Below are positions 176-23,476 of a DNA stretch of 23,476 nucleotides, one piece after another. Positions within the stretch are counted from its first letter, which is position 1, and the number at the start of each line of letters is the position of its first letter. Position numbers and translations under genes: made by a program. The stretch is from IMG/VR virus record IMGVR_UViG_3300028800_000316, positions 1 through 23,476 of that record. One strand, written 5' to 3'. Source of the stretch: a virus. The notes under the pieces are model-generated. The model had not been told where the DNA came from. It made no database searches and worked only from the letters and a program-made list of their open reading frames with translations.

Positions 176-510
176 CCGTCGTCCCTACCCCAGAAGCAAC
201 AGAGCGGAAAAGGGCAAACTTCCCCGGAAAGCGTGACCTGATGGCCCTCACAACGGCAGAGATGCGCCGGCGGATCCGCACCCGCTATGGATCGACCAGC
301 GGCTCCGTCATCGTCCCCGAGCACCTGGTGGTCTACGAGGTCGCCGCACGCGAGCAAGTCCGCGGTGACTACGCCAGATGGGCATGCCAGCGCCGCATCG
401 ACGTCGTCGCCGTAGGGCTCCTGCACCGCACCGAGTACCTGATCGCCTTCCGCCGCGGTGAGACCGCCGGCCGCTGGACCCAGAAACACGAGCAGGAGGC
501 CACGGGCTGA
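172..510 (+). CDS. Hypothetical early protein, 112 aa
   Basis: The ATG at 172 overlaps the preceding stop as ATGA and has a GGGAG ribosome-binding site 5 nt upstream (161-166 region), which decides this start over the longer Gly/Cys-rich extension to 25. The protein is basic. An Arg-rich stretch RRRIRTRYG (about residues 33-41) precedes a segment with EVAA, RIDVVAVGLL and LIAFRRGE. The order 'RYG...EV...R-DV-AVGL...' faintly recalls the N-terminal half of MmcB-like DNA-repair proteins, but the similarity is too weak to name it. The stop overlaps the next start (TGATG), placing it in the early operon. I do not recognise the family. Confidence 0.75.
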   Translation: MTVVPTPEATERKRANFPGKRDLMALTTAEMRRRIRTRYGSTSGSVIVPEHLVVYEVAAREQVRGDYARWACQRRIDVVAVGLLHRTEYLIAFRRGETAGRWTQKHEQEATG

Positions 511-1055
511 TGCCTTGGTTCCGCGTCGACGACAACCTCGCCCTACACCCGAAGACCATCCGGGTAGGCAACGCCGCCGTAGGCATGTGGGTGCGAAGTG
601 GATCATGGTGCGCACAGCAGTTGACCGACGGATTCATCCCCGACCAGATGGTCCGCGTCTTCGGGGGTCCAGCACTCGCCGAGAAGCTCGTCCGCGCCGG
701 CTTCTGGCTCAAGGTCGACGGTGGGTACCAATTCCACGAATGGGGCGAAAGGCAACCGTCCCGAGCGCGAGTCGAGGAGAACCGCAAGGCCGCAGCAACG
801 CGAAAGGAACGCTGGCGGGAACGCCACGAGAACGGCGTTCCAGAGACCGTTCCGAACGGTGTGACGGACAGCGTTCCGAACGCCGTGGGGAACGCCAATG
901 CCGCGCCCCCCCACGCGCGCGCAACCCGGCCCGGCCCGGCCCGTAGTAGTTCTTCTGTAGGTGAAGAATCATCTAGCTCCGTACCGCGCGCGACCACCAC
1001 CGCCGTCATCGACCCGTGGGCGCCGGGCCGTCCCACCGACGAGCCGCCGTTCTGA
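510..1055 (+). CDS. Putative replication initiator / DnaT-like winged-helix protein, 181 aa
   Basis: The N-terminus MPWFRVDDNLALHPKT followed by G-NAAVGMWVRSGSWCAQQLTDGFIPD (about residues 1-45) and L...GFWL..DGGYQFHEWGERQ (64-82) is the typical opening of actinophage winged-helix replication/DNA-binding proteins. A basic helix ENRKAAATRKERWRER (90-105) follows, then a low-complexity tail with repeated V-P-N/E units (109-125) and a Pro/Ser-rich end. These proteins are usually thought to bind the origin or load helicase; that role is inferred here. The DNA encoding residues about 99-130 is an iteron-like cluster (see the origin candidate). Start TGATG-overlaps the previous gene, and the stop overlaps the next start the same way. 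Confidence 0.8.
   Translation: MPWFRVDDNLALHPKTIRVGNAAVGMWVRSGSWCAQQLTDGFIPDQMVRVFGGPALAEKLVRAGFWLKVDGGYQFHEWGERQPSRARVEENRKAAATRKERWRERHENGVPETVPNGVTDSVPNAVGNANAAPPHARATRPGPARSSSSVGEESSSSVPRATTTAVIDPWAPGRPTDEPPF
806..977. other. Candidate replication origin: GGAACG/CGTTCC iterons plus A/T-rich stretch
   Basis: Within 91 bp there are GGAACGC at 806-812, GGAACGCC at 818-825, its complement GGCGTTCC at 834-841, a perfect inverted repeat ACCGTTC-c-GAACGGT at 846-860, a second GCGTTC-c-GAACGC at 871-883, and GGAACGCC again at 889-896. After a GC-rich CCCGG repeat (about 923-942) comes a stretch about 60% A/T (943-977) containing TTCTTC/GAAGAA as an inverted repeat (950-955 and 963-968). Iterons followed by A/T-rich DNA inside the initiator gene is the layout of the lambda O-gene origin. 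The assignment is inference; the repeats could instead reflect selection on the V-P-N repeats of the protein. Confidence 0.45.
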
Positions 1056-3581: not shown

Positions 3582-3657
3582 AGCGCGGTAGGGGAGCTCG
3601 GCCGTCCCCGCAGGCCTCATAAGCCTGAGATCGCTGGTTCGAATCCAGCCTGCGCTA
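3582..3657 (+). tRNA. tRNA with CAU anticodon (elongator Met or Ile2)
   Basis: All four arms fold. Acceptor AGCGCGG (3582-3588) pairs with CTGCGCT (3650-3656) with one G-U. D stem is GGGG/CCCC (3591-3594 with 3606-3609). Anticodon stem is CAGGC/GCCTG (3611-3615 with 3623-3627) around loop CTCATAA, with CAT at 3618-3620. A 5-nt variable loop follows, then T stem GCTGG/CCAGC around TTCGAAT (3633-3649). Discriminator A at 3657; CCA is not encoded. The normal A1-U72 pair and the absence of GGG/CCC in the anticodon stem argue against initiator tRNA. Elongator Met and lysidine-modified Ile2 cannot be separated without a model. Confidence 0.93.
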
Positions 3658-3674
3658 CAACCCGGGACGGCCTG

Positions 3675-4456: not shown

Positions 4457-5999
4457 TCTCACCCCGTCACGGGTGTCGACGCACCCGCTGTACGACGACC
4501 CGGTCGGGTTCGCCACCGACTGCATCCGCTGGCCGTCCGGTCAAGGGCTGACGGACTACCAGGCTGAGACGCTCGCCGCGGTCCCGGAGCATCGGCGCGT
4601 CGCGGAGCGTGGCCCGCATGGTCTCGGGAAGACCACGACCGCCGCGATCCTGGTGCTGTGGTTCGCCGCCACCCGCAACGCCAGCGCGGTCGACTGGAAG
4701 GCCGCGACGACCGCCGGTGCGTGGCGGCAGCTCGAGCGGTATCTGTGGCCGGAGATCCAGAAATGGGCGCGGCGGATCCGCTGGGATGTCCTCGACGTGC
4801 AGCCGTGGGACCCACGCACGCAGCTGCTCACGTTGAACATCAAGCTCGCGCACGGGCAGGCGTTCGCGGTCGCCTCCGATGAGCCGGCGCTGATCGAGGG
4901 TGTGCACGCCGACAGCGTCCTGTACGTGTTCGACGAGTCGAAGTCGATCGCCGCCGGCACGTTCGACGCCGCTGAAGGCGCGTTCTCCGGTGCCGGTGAC
5001 GACGCGCCGATGGAAGCCTTCGCGTTCGCCGCCTCAACCCCAGGTGAGCCGTCGGGCCGGTTCTACGACATCCACACCCGCAAACCCGGGCTTGAGGACT
5101 GGTGGGTCCGGCACGTCACCGTCGAGGAGACGGTCCGGGCCGGCCGCGTCACCTCCGAATGGGTGCAGCAACGCCGCGCGCAGTGGGGCGAAACGTCGGC
5201 GGTGTACGCGAACCGGGTCCTCGGCGAGTTCCACACCTCGGACACCGACGGTGTGATCCCGCTGGAATGGGTTGAGCTCGCGAACGAACGCTGGCAGGCA
5301 TGGGCCGACGCTGGCCGGGTCCTCGAAGGGCCGATGGCGCTCGGTGTCGACGTCGCCCGCGAAGGCGAAGACCAGACCGTCCTCGCACCCAAGCACGGCG
5401 ACATCGTCCTCGAGCTGCGCCGGCACACGAAGCAGGCGACCACCCAAACCACCGGGCAGGTCGTCGGGATCCTCGACGCGAACGACGGGATGCAAGCGAT
5501 CGTCGACGTGATCGGCGTCGGTGGTGGCGTCGTCGACCAGCTCCGGGAGCAAAAGAAGCTCGTGGTGGCGTTCAACGCTTCCGAGAGCAAAGCGATCGCG
5601 CACCTGACGGACCGGTCCGGTGAGCTGCACTTCCTGAACACCCGCGCCGCGGCCTGGTGGAACCTGCGGGAGATGCTCGACCCGGCGTTCGGTGCGACGC
5701 TCGCGTTGCCACCCGACCCGGAACTGACCGGCGACCTTTGCGCACCGCGCTGGAAGATCATGTCCGGCGGGAAGATCCAGGTCGAAGCCAAGGACGACAT
5801 CAAGAAACGACTCGGCCGCTCACCCGACGCCGGCGACACGGTGATGCAGGCGTGCTGGACGATCACGAGCTCCGGCTCAGCGTTCCTCGAACATCTGAAG
5901 CGACGCGAAGCGGCCGGTGAAGCGACCGTGACCCACACCGACTGGCGGTCGAGAGCCGCAACGACCAAGACCCGGAAGGCGGTCAGCCTTGACCGCTGA
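4371..5999 (+). CDS. terL: Terminase large subunit (DNA-packaging ATPase/nuclease), 542 aa
   Basis: This is the motor that pumps and cuts DNA at the portal. Visible motifs are Walker A GPHGLGKT (81-88), Walker B VLYVFDE (183-189, with D188 and E189), motif III AASTP (220-224), and an RNase H-like nuclease with D327 in GVDVA, D379 in IVDVIG and D487 or D489 in PDAGDT near the C-terminus. Length is normal for the family. ATG 4371 is the first reasonable start; the frame is open to 4191 but that part is shadow of the small subunit. No good ribosome-binding site is seen, so translation may be coupled to terS. The stop overlaps the portal TTG start by 11 nt. Confidence 0.93.
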   Translation: MTRQPPALIVEADLERLRYLRELQQQVRDLTPSRVSTHPLYDDPVGFATDCIRWPSGQGLTDYQAETLAAVPEHRRVAERGPHGLGKTTTAAILVLWFAATRNASAVDWKAATTAGAWRQLERYLWPEIQKWARRIRWDVLDVQPWDPRTQLLTLNIKLAHGQAFAVASDEPALIEGVHADSVLYVFDESKSIAAGTFDAAEGAFSGAGDDAPMEAFAFAASTPGEPSGRFYDIHTRKPGLEDWWVRHVTVEETVRAGRVTSEWVQQRRAQWGETSAVYANRVLGEFHTSDTDGVIPLEWVELANERWQAWADAGRVLEGPMALGVDVAREGEDQTVLAPKHGDIVLELRRHTKQATTQTTGQVVGILDANDGMQAIVDVIGVGGGVVDQLREQKKLVVAFNASESKAIAHLTDRSGELHFLNTRAAAWWNLREMLDPAFGATLALPPDPELTGDLCAPRWKIMSGGKIQVEAKDDIKKRLGRSPDAGDTVMQACWTITSSGSAFLEHLKRREAAGEATVTHTDWRSRAATTKTRKAVSLDR

Positions 6000-8493
6000 A
6001 ATCGTCGCCCGGCCGCAGCTCCTCAAACCGAACGGTGAGCCGTTCACGATCCGTGACCGCCGCGCGATCGCGAAGGCCGGTGCGGCCAGCGGCCCGACGC
6101 CAGCCGCGATCGACACCGCGATGGCATCCGAAGGCATGGGCTGGACGTCAACGTTCGGTCCCGGCCGGCCGCTCAACCCGATCTGGGGCTACTCGCGGCG
6201 GCCGCGTGGGTTCGACTACCCGGCTGGCGTCAACATCACGACGCAGCCCCGCGCTGCGTACAACCGGCCGTCGTTCGACACGCTCCGGGCGATCATCAAC
6301 GCCTACGACATCGCGCAGACGTGCATCGCGCACAAGATCGACTCGCTGCGATCGATGGACCTGCAGTTCAAGCCGTCGGACGTCTCTGAGGGCGACGTCG
6401 ACCTGCCGATGAAGGCGGCCCGGGCCGCGTTGGAATCCCCCGACCGTGAGCTCCCGTTCGATCTGTGGCTCGCGAAGTTCATGGACGGCGTCTTCCGGTA
6501 CGACGCGGGCTGCCTGTACCGGCGCCGGAACCGCGCCGGGCAGGTGATCGGGCTCGAGGTCGTCGACGGGACGTCGGTCACGCCGTACATCGACGAGCAC
6601 GGCCGGAAGCCCGCGCCGCCGGCGCCCGCCTACGCGCAGATCATCAAGGGCATCCCGTGGGATGACCTGACCACCGATGACCTGATCTACGCGCCGTTCC
6701 GGCCGCAGACCGACTCGCCTTACGGGTTGGCGCCGATCGAGACGATCCTGCTGACCGCGAACAACGACCTGCGGTTCCAGTGGCACATGCTGAACTACTT
6801 CACGGCCGGGTCGATGCCCGCCGGGTTCCTGACCGCGCCGACGAACGCGACGACACCGGACCAGGTCGCGGAGTGGCAGGCCTACTGGGATGCGTTCATG
6901 ATCGGCGACCAGGAAGCGATCCGGCAGATCAAGCTCGTCGAGTCGACGATGAAGTTCAGCCAGGCCCGCGACGCGACGTTCGACGAGAACTTCCAGCTGG
7001 CGCTGATCCGCCGGACCTGCGCGGCGTTCGGTGTGGTCCCGAACGACCTCGGGTTGACGATGGACGTCAACCTCGCCAACGGCGAGACCCAGATGGACGT
7101 CCAGTTCCGGGTCAACGACCGGCCGGTGCAACGGTTCGTCGAGAAGCTGCTCACGAACTACCTGCAGCGTGATCTCGGTCTGCCGGTGAAGGTCGAGTTC
7201 GACGACGGGCAGGAGAAGGAGGACCGGCTCACCGAGGCTCAGGCGTGGCAGGTCTACATCGAGACCGGGATGGCTTCGGTTGACGAGGGCCGCGAGGCGC
7301 TGCTCGGGTTGCCGACCGACAACACCCGGCCGGTGCCGCGGTTCTACGCGGGTGGGAAGCAGGGCCCGATCCCGCTGGTCGACATCGTCGCTGCGTCGGG
7401 CCCGATCGACCCGGACACGGCCGCGCCGGCGGATGACGTGCCGATCCCGGCGGTTGACTTCCCGGGCGGTATCCCTGGCGTGGTGCCGGTGAAACTGCCG
7501 GGACAGACGGACTTCACTCGTGCACCGGTCGACACGACGGGCGCACCGGAGCAGCAGACGGCGGAGATCGTGCCGCCGCCGGTGGCGAAGGCCGCGACCG
7601 AGGGTGTGACCGCCGCGACGGGGATCACCGGGTACGACCTGCGGGGCGCACCGAAGGACGACGAGGACGAGGACGACGACGCCCGCGGGATGACCGGGGT
7701 GGTGAAGGGCGCCGACGAGCTCGCTGCCTTCAGCAGGTTCATCAAGGCCCGCAAACGCGACGGGAAGTGGCGCGACTTCACGTTCACCGCGCTCGACCCC
7801 GTCACCGCGCACCGATACAACGACCGGGTCCGCAGCCAGATCCGGAAGGCCGCCGGCGAGATCATCGCCGCGGGTCTCGCGGTGGTCGCGGAGGACTCGG
7901 GCCGGGTGCTGATGTTGCAGCGCGGCCTTGATCCGACGGATCCGGCGTCCGGGATGTGGGAGTTCCCCGGGGGGCATGTCGAGACCGGTGAGGACCCGCA
8001 GGCTGCGGCGTGCCGCGAATGGGCGGAAGAGACGGGCCTGGTGGGTGTCGAGGTCGCGATGACTTCGGGGTGGACGTCAGCGAACGGTGTCTACCAGGGG
8101 TTCGTCGCGACGGTGCCGTCCGAGGATGCTGTGCCGTTGCTGAACCGGGCTGCGGGTGTGAACCCGGACGATCCTGATGGTGATCTGGTCGAGTCGATCG
8201 CCTGGTGGGATCCGGCCTTGTTGGTCGGGAATCCGGCGGTCCGTGCGGAGCTCGCCGACTCGCTCGACCTGGTGCTCGACGCGCTGCCGTCGTCTGAGGA
8301 TGTGGCTAAGGCCGCCGCTGATGCTGGCCCAAAAGGCGTTCACACGCGTTGGCATGATGCGCCGATCCGCCGTCTGGATGACCGGGCGGTCGAGTTCCAT
8401 GCCGTCAAGGTCAAGGCTGCGTTGGCGTCGCTGGTTGACCCTGCGGCGCTCGAGGGGCTGATCGAGTCTTACCGGGCGGTGTCGGGTGGCTGA
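5989..8493 (+). CDS. Portal protein fused to a C-terminal Nudix hydrolase domain, 834 aa
   Basis: TTG start at 5989 with AAGG about 10 nt upstream. Residues about 85-440 are a phage portal: FDTLRAIINAYDIAQTCIAHKI, DDLIYAPFRP, SPYGLAPIETI, and FGVVPNDLGL. A Pro/Asp-rich linker follows with an acidic run (about 554-566), then a conserved-looking segment FSRFIKARKRDGKWRDF (about 580-596). Residues about 625-765 hold a Nudix fold: MWEFPGGHVETGEDPQAAAC then REWAEETGL fits GX5EX7REUXEEXGU exactly (G662, E668, R676, E677, E680, E681, G683), with all metal-binding glutamates intact. Portals are normally 400-550 aa, so about 300 residues are extra. Residues 534-551 repeat the capsid N-terminus almost exactly. 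The Nudix substrate is unknown. Confidence 0.9.
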   Translation: MTAEIVARPQLLKPNGEPFTIRDRRAIAKAGAASGPTPAAIDTAMASEGMGWTSTFGPGRPLNPIWGYSRRPRGFDYPAGVNITTQPRAAYNRPSFDTLRAIINAYDIAQTCIAHKIDSLRSMDLQFKPSDVSEGDVDLPMKAARAALESPDRELPFDLWLAKFMDGVFRYDAGCLYRRRNRAGQVIGLEVVDGTSVTPYIDEHGRKPAPPAPAYAQIIKGIPWDDLTTDDLIYAPFRPQTDSPYGLAPIETILLTANNDLRFQWHMLNYFTAGSMPAGFLTAPTNATTPDQVAEWQAYWDAFMIGDQEAIRQIKLVESTMKFSQARDATFDENFQLALIRRTCAAFGVVPNDLGLTMDVNLANGETQMDVQFRVNDRPVQRFVEKLLTNYLQRDLGLPVKVEFDDGQEKEDRLTEAQAWQVYIETGMASVDEGREALLGLPTDNTRPVPRFYAGGKQGPIPLVDIVAASGPIDPDTAAPADDVPIPAVDFPGGIPGVVPVKLPGQTDFTRAPVDTTGAPEQQTAEIVPPPVAKAATEGVTAATGITGYDLRGAPKDDEDEDDDARGMTGVVKGADELAAFSRFIKARKRDGKWRDFTFTALDPVTAHRYNDRVRSQIRKAAGEIIAAGLAVVAEDSGRVLMLQRGLDPTDPASGMWEFPGGHVETGEDPQAAACREWAEETGLVGVEVAMTSGWTSANGVYQGFVATVPSEDAVPLLNRAAGVNPDDPDGDLVESIAWWDPALLVGNPAVRAELADSLDLVLDALPSSEDVAKAAADAGPKGVHTRWHDAPIRRLDDRAVEFHAVKVKAALASLVDPAALEGLIESYRAVSGG

Positions 8494-21643: not shown

Positions 21644-23476
21644 TGCCGATCATCGGTGGGGGCTCGAACCCGAACTGTCCGCTGATCAGCCTGATGTTCG
21701 GGTTCGGTCAGGCACCGAACCAGCTGGCCCCGTCGTACAACACGCCGGTCGCCTATCTGAACCGGTCGCTGGCGATCTCCCCACGTGGCCGGCAGTACGA
21801 GCAGGGTCAGTACCAGTCGTCGACGATGACCGGGCAGCTCGACAACCGTGATGGGCAGTTCGCTCCGGGGCCGGGCTTGAACGCGAACCTGTTGACGCCT
21901 GATGTCGCGGCGCCGGGTTGCGTGTCGGGTGCGGTCCCGTTCCAGTTCGCTGCGGTGTCCGGCGCGACGTTGAGCCGGGACACGACGTCGAAGCTCGGGC
22001 CGAACCGCTGCTCGCTGAAGGTCGTCATCCCGGGATCGTTGGCGTCGCTGTCGCAGGTCGCGACGGTCGGCGGGTTCCTGGTCAAGCCGGGTGTCGTCTA
22101 CTCGTTCGCGTCGCAGATCGTGAACCAGGGTCCGACGGTCAGCGCGCTGCTCGAGATCCAGTGGCTGGATATCACCGGGACGCTGATCTCGACGCAGCTC
22201 GGGTCGCCGGCGGTCGTGACGGGCACGACCGGGTATTGCCTGGTCGAGAACAAGACCGCACCGGTGAACGCCTGGACGGTCCGGCTGGCGTGGATCACTT
22301 CCGGTGGCGCGACGACCGGGGTGACGACCTGGTATATCAGCAATATCGAGATGGTCGCTGCGGCTGTCTCAGCGTTCGAGACGGTGTCGGCGCACTACCC
22401 GAATGTCCGGCCGGAGACCCCGGTCCAGTTCCTCGCGACGTGGGCGGGTACGCCGTACCCGGTGTGGACGGGGTTCGTTGAGAGGTGGCCGCAGACCTGG
22501 AACTCGCCGGGGTTCGGGGTGGGGAACTTCGTCGGGGTGGATGCTTACGCGGCGTTGGCGAATATCACGTTGGACTCGGCGTATGACGCTGAGGTCCTGT
22601 TGGCTGGGCCGGTCGCGTACTACCCGATGCACGAAGCGGCCGGGTCGACGTCGATCGCGAACGCATCCGCGACGCTGCAGCTCGACGGGCAACTGATCCT
22701 GTCGAAGCTCGTGCCGCTGTCCCCGACGTTCGGGTCAGCAACGCTGCTGGCGCCGCTCGGCGACGGTGGCACCTCGATCCTGGGTGCCGCGACGTCCGCG
22801 AACTCCTTCCAGGACGGCGGCTGCTTCCTCATCGGGTCGGCCGGTGTCGGACCGTTCCTCAACCCAGTCGGCGGCTTCACGGTCGAGGCGTGGTTCTCAA
22901 CGACGACCGCTGTCGACCCCATCGTCATCGTCAACCAGCAGGCCCCGCTCCTGCAGGGATTCAGCCTGATCGTCCAGGGCGGCTCGGTCGGGTCGATCAA
23001 CGTCAACGGCCCGAGCGGAAATCTCGCGCAGTACCTCGGACCGGTCACGCTGAACCAGGACCACCACGTCGTGATGACCCTCGGGGTCGACCAGGAGACG
23101 ATCACCGTCTGGCTCGACGACGTGATCGTGCTCACCCACGTCCTCGGCTCACCGCTGACCCTGTCATCGTTCGCCACCAGCGTCATGTCGATCGGCGGAG
23201 AGATCACCGGGGCCGGCAACCCGGTCGCGCAGATGGGCAACGTGCTGTCGGTCCACACGCGGCTGTCGAACGTCGCCCTGTACGACTACCCGATCGCGGC
23301 GCCCCGCGTCGCGTCGCACTACCTGGTCGGGTCGACGGCCGCCGCCGGCGAAGGCACCGACGCACGGCACGCCCGGATCCTCTCCTACGCCGGATGGTCC
23401 GGCCCGCAGACCGCGTTCGGGTGCGCCAGCCAGGCCGGCCCGCTGATCTGCAAGGGAGCGCTCGCGACCGACGCGC
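21643..23476 (+). CDS. Minor tail protein with LamG-like domain (3' end cut by window)
   Basis: The ATG at 21643 overlaps the tape measure stop (TAATG), and the frame stays open for 611 codons to the edge. The N-terminus has YNTPVAYLNRSLAISPRGRQ, then MTGQLDNRDGQFAPGPG, a strand-rich signature of actinophage minor tail proteins following the tape measure. Residues about 85-245 look like a carbohydrate-binding beta sandwich. WAGTPYPVWTGFVERWPQTW (267-286) is a tail-hub-like linker. From about 324, GPVAYYPMHEAAGSTS, then GGFTVEAWFSTTT (about 408-420) and ETITVWLDDVIV form a LamG/concanavalin-like jelly roll. Probably at the tail tip and possibly in surface glycan binding; inferred. Confidence 0.85.
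   Translation, partial: MPIIGGGSNPNCPLISLMFGFGQAPNQLAPSYNTPVAYLNRSLAISPRGRQYEQGQYQSSTMTGQLDNRDGQFAPGPGLNANLLTPDVAAPGCVSGAVPFQFAAVSGATLSRDTTSKLGPNRCSLKVVIPGSLASLSQVATVGGFLVKPGVVYSFASQIVNQGPTVSALLEIQWLDITGTLISTQLGSPAVVTGTTGYCLVENKTAPVNAWTVRLAWITSGGATTGVTTWYISNIEMVAAAVSAFETVSAHYPNVRPETPVQFLATWAGTPYPVWTGFVERWPQTWNSPGFGVGNFVGVDAYAALANITLDSAYDAEVLLAGPVAYYPMHEAAGSTSIANASATLQLDGQLILSKLVPLSPTFGSATLLAPLGDGGTSILGAATSANSFQDGGCFLIGSAGVGPFLNPVGGFTVEAWFSTTTAVDPIVIVNQQAPLLQGFSLIVQGGSVGSINVNGPSGNLAQYLGPVTLNQDHHVVMTLGVDQETITVWLDDVIVLTHVLGSPLTLSSFATSVMSIGGEITGAGNPVAQMGNVLSVHTRLSNVALYDYPIAAPRVASHYLVGSTAAAGEGTDARHARILSYAGWSGPQTAFGCASQAGPLICKGALATDA

Follow-up and report, generated by a model that had tools for sequence, protein, structure and literature searches.

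Positions 806 to 978 of the phage sequence studied here most probably form a replication origin located inside the gene for its own initiator, and we put the likelihood of this reading at roughly 85%. Binding of the initiator and initiation itself are inferred from sequence, as there are no replication, footprinting, or marker-frequency data. An origin is by far the best explanation for an initiator gene found together with clustered repeats, both inverted and direct, an adjoining A/T-rich stretch, a fixed order and place for these elements, and their independence of coding. In-gene origins are already a known kind; what is new is a C-tract, whose template strand is capable of forming a G-quadruplex, together with a strand-oriented hairpin.

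The initiator gene and its internal elements

The window, by which we mean the whole stretch that was analyzed, is a linear fragment (23,476 bp) of a G+C-rich phage and constitutes an entire IMG/VR record; its relevant features are listed in Table 1. The product of the initiator gene matches the profile phrog_2447 ('replication initiation protein') over residues 1 to 158 with an E value of 1.7e-51. Searching with tblastn gives matches in 598 phage records, many of them annotated as replication initiation protein or RepA-like replication initiator, and the hosts are mainly Mycobacterium and Gordonia, with Streptomyces, Arthrobacter, Microbacterium, and Propionibacterium also represented. No experiment on initiation activity of the phrog_2447/RepA-like family was found in the literature searched, and the window protein matches no Pfam family at E≤0.1, and hence neither RepA_N (PF06970) nor DnaT (PF17948).

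An AlphaFold2 model of the window protein, built on an alignment of 89 sequences, has pLDDT values of 88 to 98 up to residue 110 (H45-51, H54-63, and a wing of E66-69 and E72-75). Residues 1 to 108 are confidently folded and the protein is disordered from there on, so that the DNA of the iterons, C-tract, and A/T-rich stretch mostly encodes the disordered part (approximately 834 to 1052). The proposal in the first-pass annotation that a low-complexity protein segment tolerates constraints on the DNA thus holds.

Table 1. Features of the initiator gene and its internal elements in the window
Feature	Position	Strand	Basis
RepA-like replication initiator gene, 181 aa	510..1055	+	phrog_2447 match; tblastn relatives
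Part coding for winged helix (residues 1-84) and long helix (85-107)	510..830	+	AlphaFold2 model
Iteron cluster, nine GAACG/CGTTC cores, both orientations, ~12-nt register	806..894		exact counts; synonymous null p 5e-5
Inverted pair GAACG-G-CGTTC	830..840		exact count
Palindrome ACCGTTC-C-GAACGGT (arms ACCGTTC/GAACGGT)	846..860		core CGTTCCGAACG at 848
Palindrome GCGTTC-C-GAACGC (arms GCGTTC/GAACGC)	871..883		core CGTTCCGAACG at 872
C-tract CCCGGCCCGGCCCGGCCC, period 5, G-quadruplex motif on - strand	925..942	+	sole match in record
A/T-rich stretch, candidate unwinding element	944..978		A/T count; synonymous null p 0.003
Weak hairpin TTCTTC-TGTAGGT-GAAGAA in A/T-rich stretch	950..968	+	p 0.23 alone; counterparts common in relatives

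Several other features of the record are noted here. The initiator gene lies 2.8 kb upstream of a small-terminase-like gene, which is itself preceded by a tRNA-Met (cat) at 3582-3658; a second tRNA call, tRNA-Leu at 22309-22395, has ARAGORN support only. An 834-aa open reading frame (5989-8493) combines portal protein (PF04860) and NUDIX hydrolase domains. The record starts within a G/C-rich tandem repeat of GGTGCGGCGCGG-like units (1-85), which has the top repeat density of the record and probably reflects an assembly break at a repeat.

The first-pass annotation counted at least six GGAACG/CGTTCC elements, and there are exactly six, with GGAACG at 806, 818, and 889, and CGTTCC at 836, 848, and 872. 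When the 5-mers are counted there are nine within 88 bp, GAACG at 807, 819, 830, 854, 878, and 890, and CGTTC at 836, 848, and 872, with spacings that are mostly 12 nt or multiples thereof. The two perfect CGTTC-c-GAACG palindromes that it reported are present as described, and CGTTCCGAACG occurs nowhere else in the whole 23.5-kb record. We compared these counts with 20,000 synonymous-codon shuffles in which the protein sequence is kept. Neither the six hexamers (shuffle mean, 1.0) nor the nine 5-mers (shuffle mean, 2.8) were ever reached by the shuffles (p 5e-5 for both), and the three palindromic pairs in the cluster compare with an expectation of 0.13 (p 1.5e-4).

Between the iteron cluster and the A/T-rich stretch lies the C-tract, CCCGGCCCGGCCCGGCCC, which is absent from the first-pass annotation. 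It is the only instance of CCC-NN-CCC-NN-CCC-NN-CCC in the record when both strands are searched, and its minus strand meets the G-quadruplex motif, having four runs of at least 3 G with short loops. The A/T-rich stretch contains 22 A/T in 35 positions, only 63%, and is nonetheless the richest 35 bp in the entire record, a stronger result than the earlier claim, which concerned the surrounding region alone. The hairpin within it is not significant by itself.

A shared plan in related phages

Our sample consists of 192 non-redundant homologues in which 300 nt or more follow the winged-helix domain. It comes from viral contigs, searched once with a protein and four times with profiles, and from one search of bacterial genomes, and it includes the window. 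When the linkers are read, the DNA following the N-domain has a common plan: short repeats in both orientations, CCC blocks 5 to 6 nt apart, an A/T-rich stretch, and often a hairpin. The iteron cores vary by phage (GTnAC, GGGAC, CGAAC, GGCAA, and GAAGCA, with GGAAC in the window); they are present in either orientation and fall in each of the three frames. Among the 173 long relatives, repeats are significant against synonymous shuffles (p≤0.05) in 60% of linkers, compared with 16% of N-domains and 20% of C-termini; the corresponding Stouffer Z values for repeat excess are 23.7, 7.1, and 7.9, and the mild excess in the control regions (Z of 7 to 8) indicates that the synonymous null is slightly liberal.

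Within the linker, enrichment of a phage's own core is 12-fold, which is expected because the iteron class was called there; upstream of the gene and in other places it is about 1.1-fold. In general, neither the N-domain nor the promoter was seen to carry extra iterons, the exceptions being the GGCAA and GAAGCA classes, where four relatives (L084, L147, L170, and L082) carry additional iterons within the winged-helix coding part, encoding peptides such as AMANAMAN; to judge from these repeats, the DNA constraint extends into the folded domain. N-domain similarity tracks iteron class, with the nearest neighbor being of the same class in 52% of cases versus 18% expected. Such an association would be expected if the N-domain reads the iterons; linkage alone could also produce it, because the two map within 300 bp of each other. 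When iteron class is mapped residue by residue against the N-domain columns, the signal is diffuse, with no focus on the recognition helix.

Because iteron arrays serve also as operators and centromeres, the element could be a DNA site of another function, such as an autoregulation operator, a partition/centromere site, or a packaging site, and the window gene does lie not far upstream of a small-terminase-like gene. However, the own core shows only 1.1-fold enrichment in upstream DNA, which gives no sign of a promoter operator. In Gordonia phage Leonard, where the initiator is gp52 (43,949-44,800) and the counterpart of window 806-980 is at about 44,300-44,480, the gene is at 44 kb of 59 kb, after the lysis and RecE/RecT genes, and not beside terminase. 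An origin accounts better for the strict link to the initiator gene, for the C-tract, and for the A/T step, and we regard a different function as very unlikely.

The C-tract is a prominent part of the plan. It is found on the coding strand in 123 of the 192 relatives and on the opposite strand in two, and control windows of equal size contain it four times upstream and five times downstream. A four-run tract is present in 110 of the 173 long genes, compared with 28.2 expected from synonymous shuffles; in these 110 relatives it is in frame in the middle of the gene, and the C-terminal part follows it. Of the 192 linkers, 100 have the strict 18-mer pattern, and 0.98 Mb of flanking DNA contains it twice on the same strand and not at all on the other. 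Fifty whole phage records (2.17 Mb), chosen for carrying the initiator and mostly having the tract, contain the strict pattern at the initiator gene in 43 cases and elsewhere at only three places. A version with CC in place of CCC and the same five-nt period accounts for a further 14 loci (3.7 expected), and the other strand has no such locus. Five-nt periodicity is missing in both its C3 and its C2 form from 55 of the 192 relatives, which include a Streptomyces-type group with a different conserved element, and the C-tract is therefore not universal.

The coding phase of the tract is spread over three frames (50/40/20), and its spacers among relatives include GA, GT, AT, GTA, GG, and T. This variety would favor a structural role, although the preference for GA is unexplained, and the sequences leave undecided whether a quadruplex, an i-motif, or a host-protein site is involved. 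We rejected an H-DNA triplex by argument alone: the CCCGA units are not homopyrimidine.

Twelve Streptomyces-type relatives (L102, L108, L168, L172, L175, L272-L274, L284, L285, L289, and L294) have no C-tract and have the word GCAGGTCAG in common; several also carry GTCACGGCGTGAC, followed by a hairpin such as GTACTTCCTACGGAAGTAC. This group may represent a distinct type of origin that shares the hairpin loop. We also note two circular records listed as plasmids: an 86-kb Saccharopolyspora record (L307, 12460-12530) has the initiator with iterons, tract, and hairpin, and a 52-kb Streptomyces record (L308, 12260-12620) has the initiator with no obvious iterons, tract, or hairpin.

A plausible objection is that the DNA repeats are merely the shadow of a low-complexity protein with NGV/NAV and PTRPDP peptide repeats, combined with codon bias or repeat slippage. 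The encoded segment is indeed of low complexity and disordered, and peptide motifs such as PTRPDPTRP recur, but codon-preserving shuffles fail to reproduce the repeats, the iterons run in both orientations and all frames, and the tract uses all three phases. The short-protein relatives are particularly informative. Translation in 18 relatives ends before the linker (108 to 126 aa), yet the C-tract is present past the stop codon in 12 of these, compared with 0.18 expected from dinucleotide shuffles, and iterons lie beyond the stop codon at p≤0.05 in 13; examples in which the plan follows the stop include L095 (Nocardioides), L027, L047, L166, and L180. Iterons and tract that are kept in non-coding DNA must be a DNA element, which a protein repeat cannot explain, and we find the protein-derived account exceedingly improbable. 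The first-pass annotation would have been refuted by relatives with conserved protein repeats and scrambled DNA repeats. We observed the reverse: the protein and the frame of the repeats change, and the DNA plan stays, also outside coding DNA.

The tract is followed by a step in base composition. The mean A+T fraction in 149 relatives rises from 0.23 within the tract to 0.57 over the 15 nt that follow, then falls to 0.43 over another 15 nt and to about 0.33 farther on. Of 167 long linkers, 43% contain a perfect hairpin with a stem of at least 8 bp, versus 4.5% in synonymous shuffles, and in the control parts such hairpins are found in 1.8% of N-domains and 2.0% of C-termini. The stems vary and the loops recur (CTAAAG, CTACG, CTAACG, CTTCG, and CTGACG); none of the loops listed after the tract is the reverse complement of a recurrent one, and this single orientation points to either a single-stranded coding strand or its transcript. 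Seven relatives (L033, L037, L044, L065, L070, L103, and L233) have, just 3' of the C-tract, a G-run, ACGCGCGCGA, and a C-run with no canonical hairpin, and window positions 944-992 look like a worn version of this element. DnaA-box-like sequences are near the tract in about five to six of 149 relatives, a count without a chance control, and the element has no Rfam match of note.

These hairpins raise the question as to whether the element acts in RNA, either as a C-rich site for Rho loading with a stem-loop behind it or through some other mRNA structure. The sense transcript is C-rich, and in many relatives a stem-loop with its loop in the one orientation stands just after the tract; several of these loops resemble stable RNA tetraloops. 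An RNA role, however, leaves the iterons unexplained, and termination before the C-terminal part would be harmful in the 110 relatives in which the tract is mid-gene and in frame. Nor did reading of the short-gene loci with a non-coding tract reveal such a hairpin after it, and we consider an RNA-acting element very unlikely. Within the origin that we favor, the hairpin seems to be an accessory element of unsettled role, as judged from its apparent absence at short-gene loci and its weak version in the window.

A proposed route to initiation

The protein models suggest how an origin at 806-978 could function. A long relative (L010) is modeled with a winged-helix domain, a disordered stretch (approximately residues 125 to 170), and a helical C-terminal domain. 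The DnaT profile (PF17948) is matched by five of 30 long relatives at E≤0.01 (best, 1.7e-5), and the C-terminal domain of L010 (model residues 174-239) aligns with DnaT structure 4ou6 with Z 6.8 and rmsd 3.2 (63 of 70 residues aligned); by both profile and fold, this domain resembles the ssDNA-binding domain of DnaT.

We propose that the 181-aa protein, acting as a multimer, would use its N-terminal winged helix to bind the GAACG/CGTTC iterons (806-894), inverted as well as direct, and that this binding would strain and open the A/T-rich stretch at 944-978. The C-tract would then expose the G-rich bottom strand, whose folding into a G-quadruplex would hold the bubble open and favor one direction, and host helicase and primase would load on the opened strands. 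In the longer relatives, the DnaT-like C-terminal domain probably binds exposed single strand or aids helicase loading; the window protein, which does not have this domain, would have to rely on a partner.

The strand-specific quadruplex is the more tentative part of this proposal, and we rate it at somewhat less than an even chance: the G-rich template strand beside the iterons may fold when the duplex opens and hold the origin open, while helicase or primase would be received by the coding strand, which is rich in C and A/T and often carries the conserved-loop hairpin. Folding has not been shown. No origin of a phage or plasmid is known to us to have a fixed quadruplex element of this sort, and our search of the literature on G-quadruplexes at phage origins found nothing relevant. 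The first-pass annotation had suggested an in-gene origin with iterons preceding A/T-rich DNA, as in lambda O, and this fits every sequence test that we ran with the exception of GC skew, the cumulative skew of three complete relatives (Leonard, G004, and G005) not turning at the tract; direct evidence of initiation is lacking.

We found no report of this layout in the open-access literature, although most subscription journals were outside our coverage, and the replication start sites of this large initiator family seem to be unmapped in the literature searched. The plan (initiator gene, iterons, CCC-NN-CCC-NN-CCC-NN-CCC, and A/T step) allows sequence-based prediction of origins in many actinobacterial phages, including isolates with laboratory hosts, and it provides a short cassette for trial as a new actinobacterial replicon. 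The plan further suggests that a C/G tract plays a structural role at an origin, and the predicted origin evidently moves between coding and non-coding DNA with its layout kept.

Relationship to known replicons

The N-domain is about equally similar to many winged helices, including those of RepA_N initiators and the DnaD N-domain. The window domain aligns with the RepA_N structure 4pql with Z 6.4 and rmsd 2.7 over 74 residues, and with 4pt7 and 5kbj with Z 6.2 and rmsd 3.1 over 76 residues, values that are tied with those for unrelated winged helices. A Foldseek search of the PDB returned nothing significant beyond a generic winged helix, no convincing sequence relatives were found among solved structures, and none of the 30 long relatives has a Pfam match to RepA_N (PF06970). 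This structural likeness establishes a fold and does not establish kinship.

RepA replicons of the cluster A mycobacteriophages Miko, Rachaly, and Jeeves have an ori inferred to be within or next to repA, and their RepA proteins are 320 to 350 aa, with no repeated motifs found by the authors (PMC7157519). They are like the window family in that RepA-dependent replication in actinobacteria is a cluster A feature; membership in the family is not established. In phage SPP1, gene 38 contains direct repeats of oriL, next to an A/T-rich unwinding element, and its product gp38, an origin-binding protein, binds these repeats (PMC6316719). The window similarly has repeats and an A/T-rich stretch inside the initiator gene, but SPP1 has a second origin and no C-tract has been described in it. 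The lambda ori has iterons and then an A/T-rich tract in the middle of gene O (PMC7466680), an order shared by the window iterons (806-894) and A/T-rich stretch (944-978), both of which are inside the initiator gene. The window differs in that its cores face both ways and a C-tract separates the iterons from the A/T stretch, and no sequence relation was found.

The staphylococcal RepA_N plasmid pSK41 is also similar. Its origin is within rep, the Rep boxes are in DNA encoding a dispensable linker, and Rep has an N-terminal winged helix that binds the Rep boxes and a C-terminal domain that contacts the replisome (PMC5703833). The models of long relatives have the same succession of winged helix, disordered linker, and C-terminal domain, and the iterons and tract fall largely within the DNA that codes for the disordered linker, although there are no binding data for the family described here. 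Unlike pSK41 rep, these genes have no Pfam RepA_N match and belong to actinobacterial phages rather than to Firmicutes plasmids, the C-tract is conserved in the phage family, and some members have their predicted origin outside the gene.
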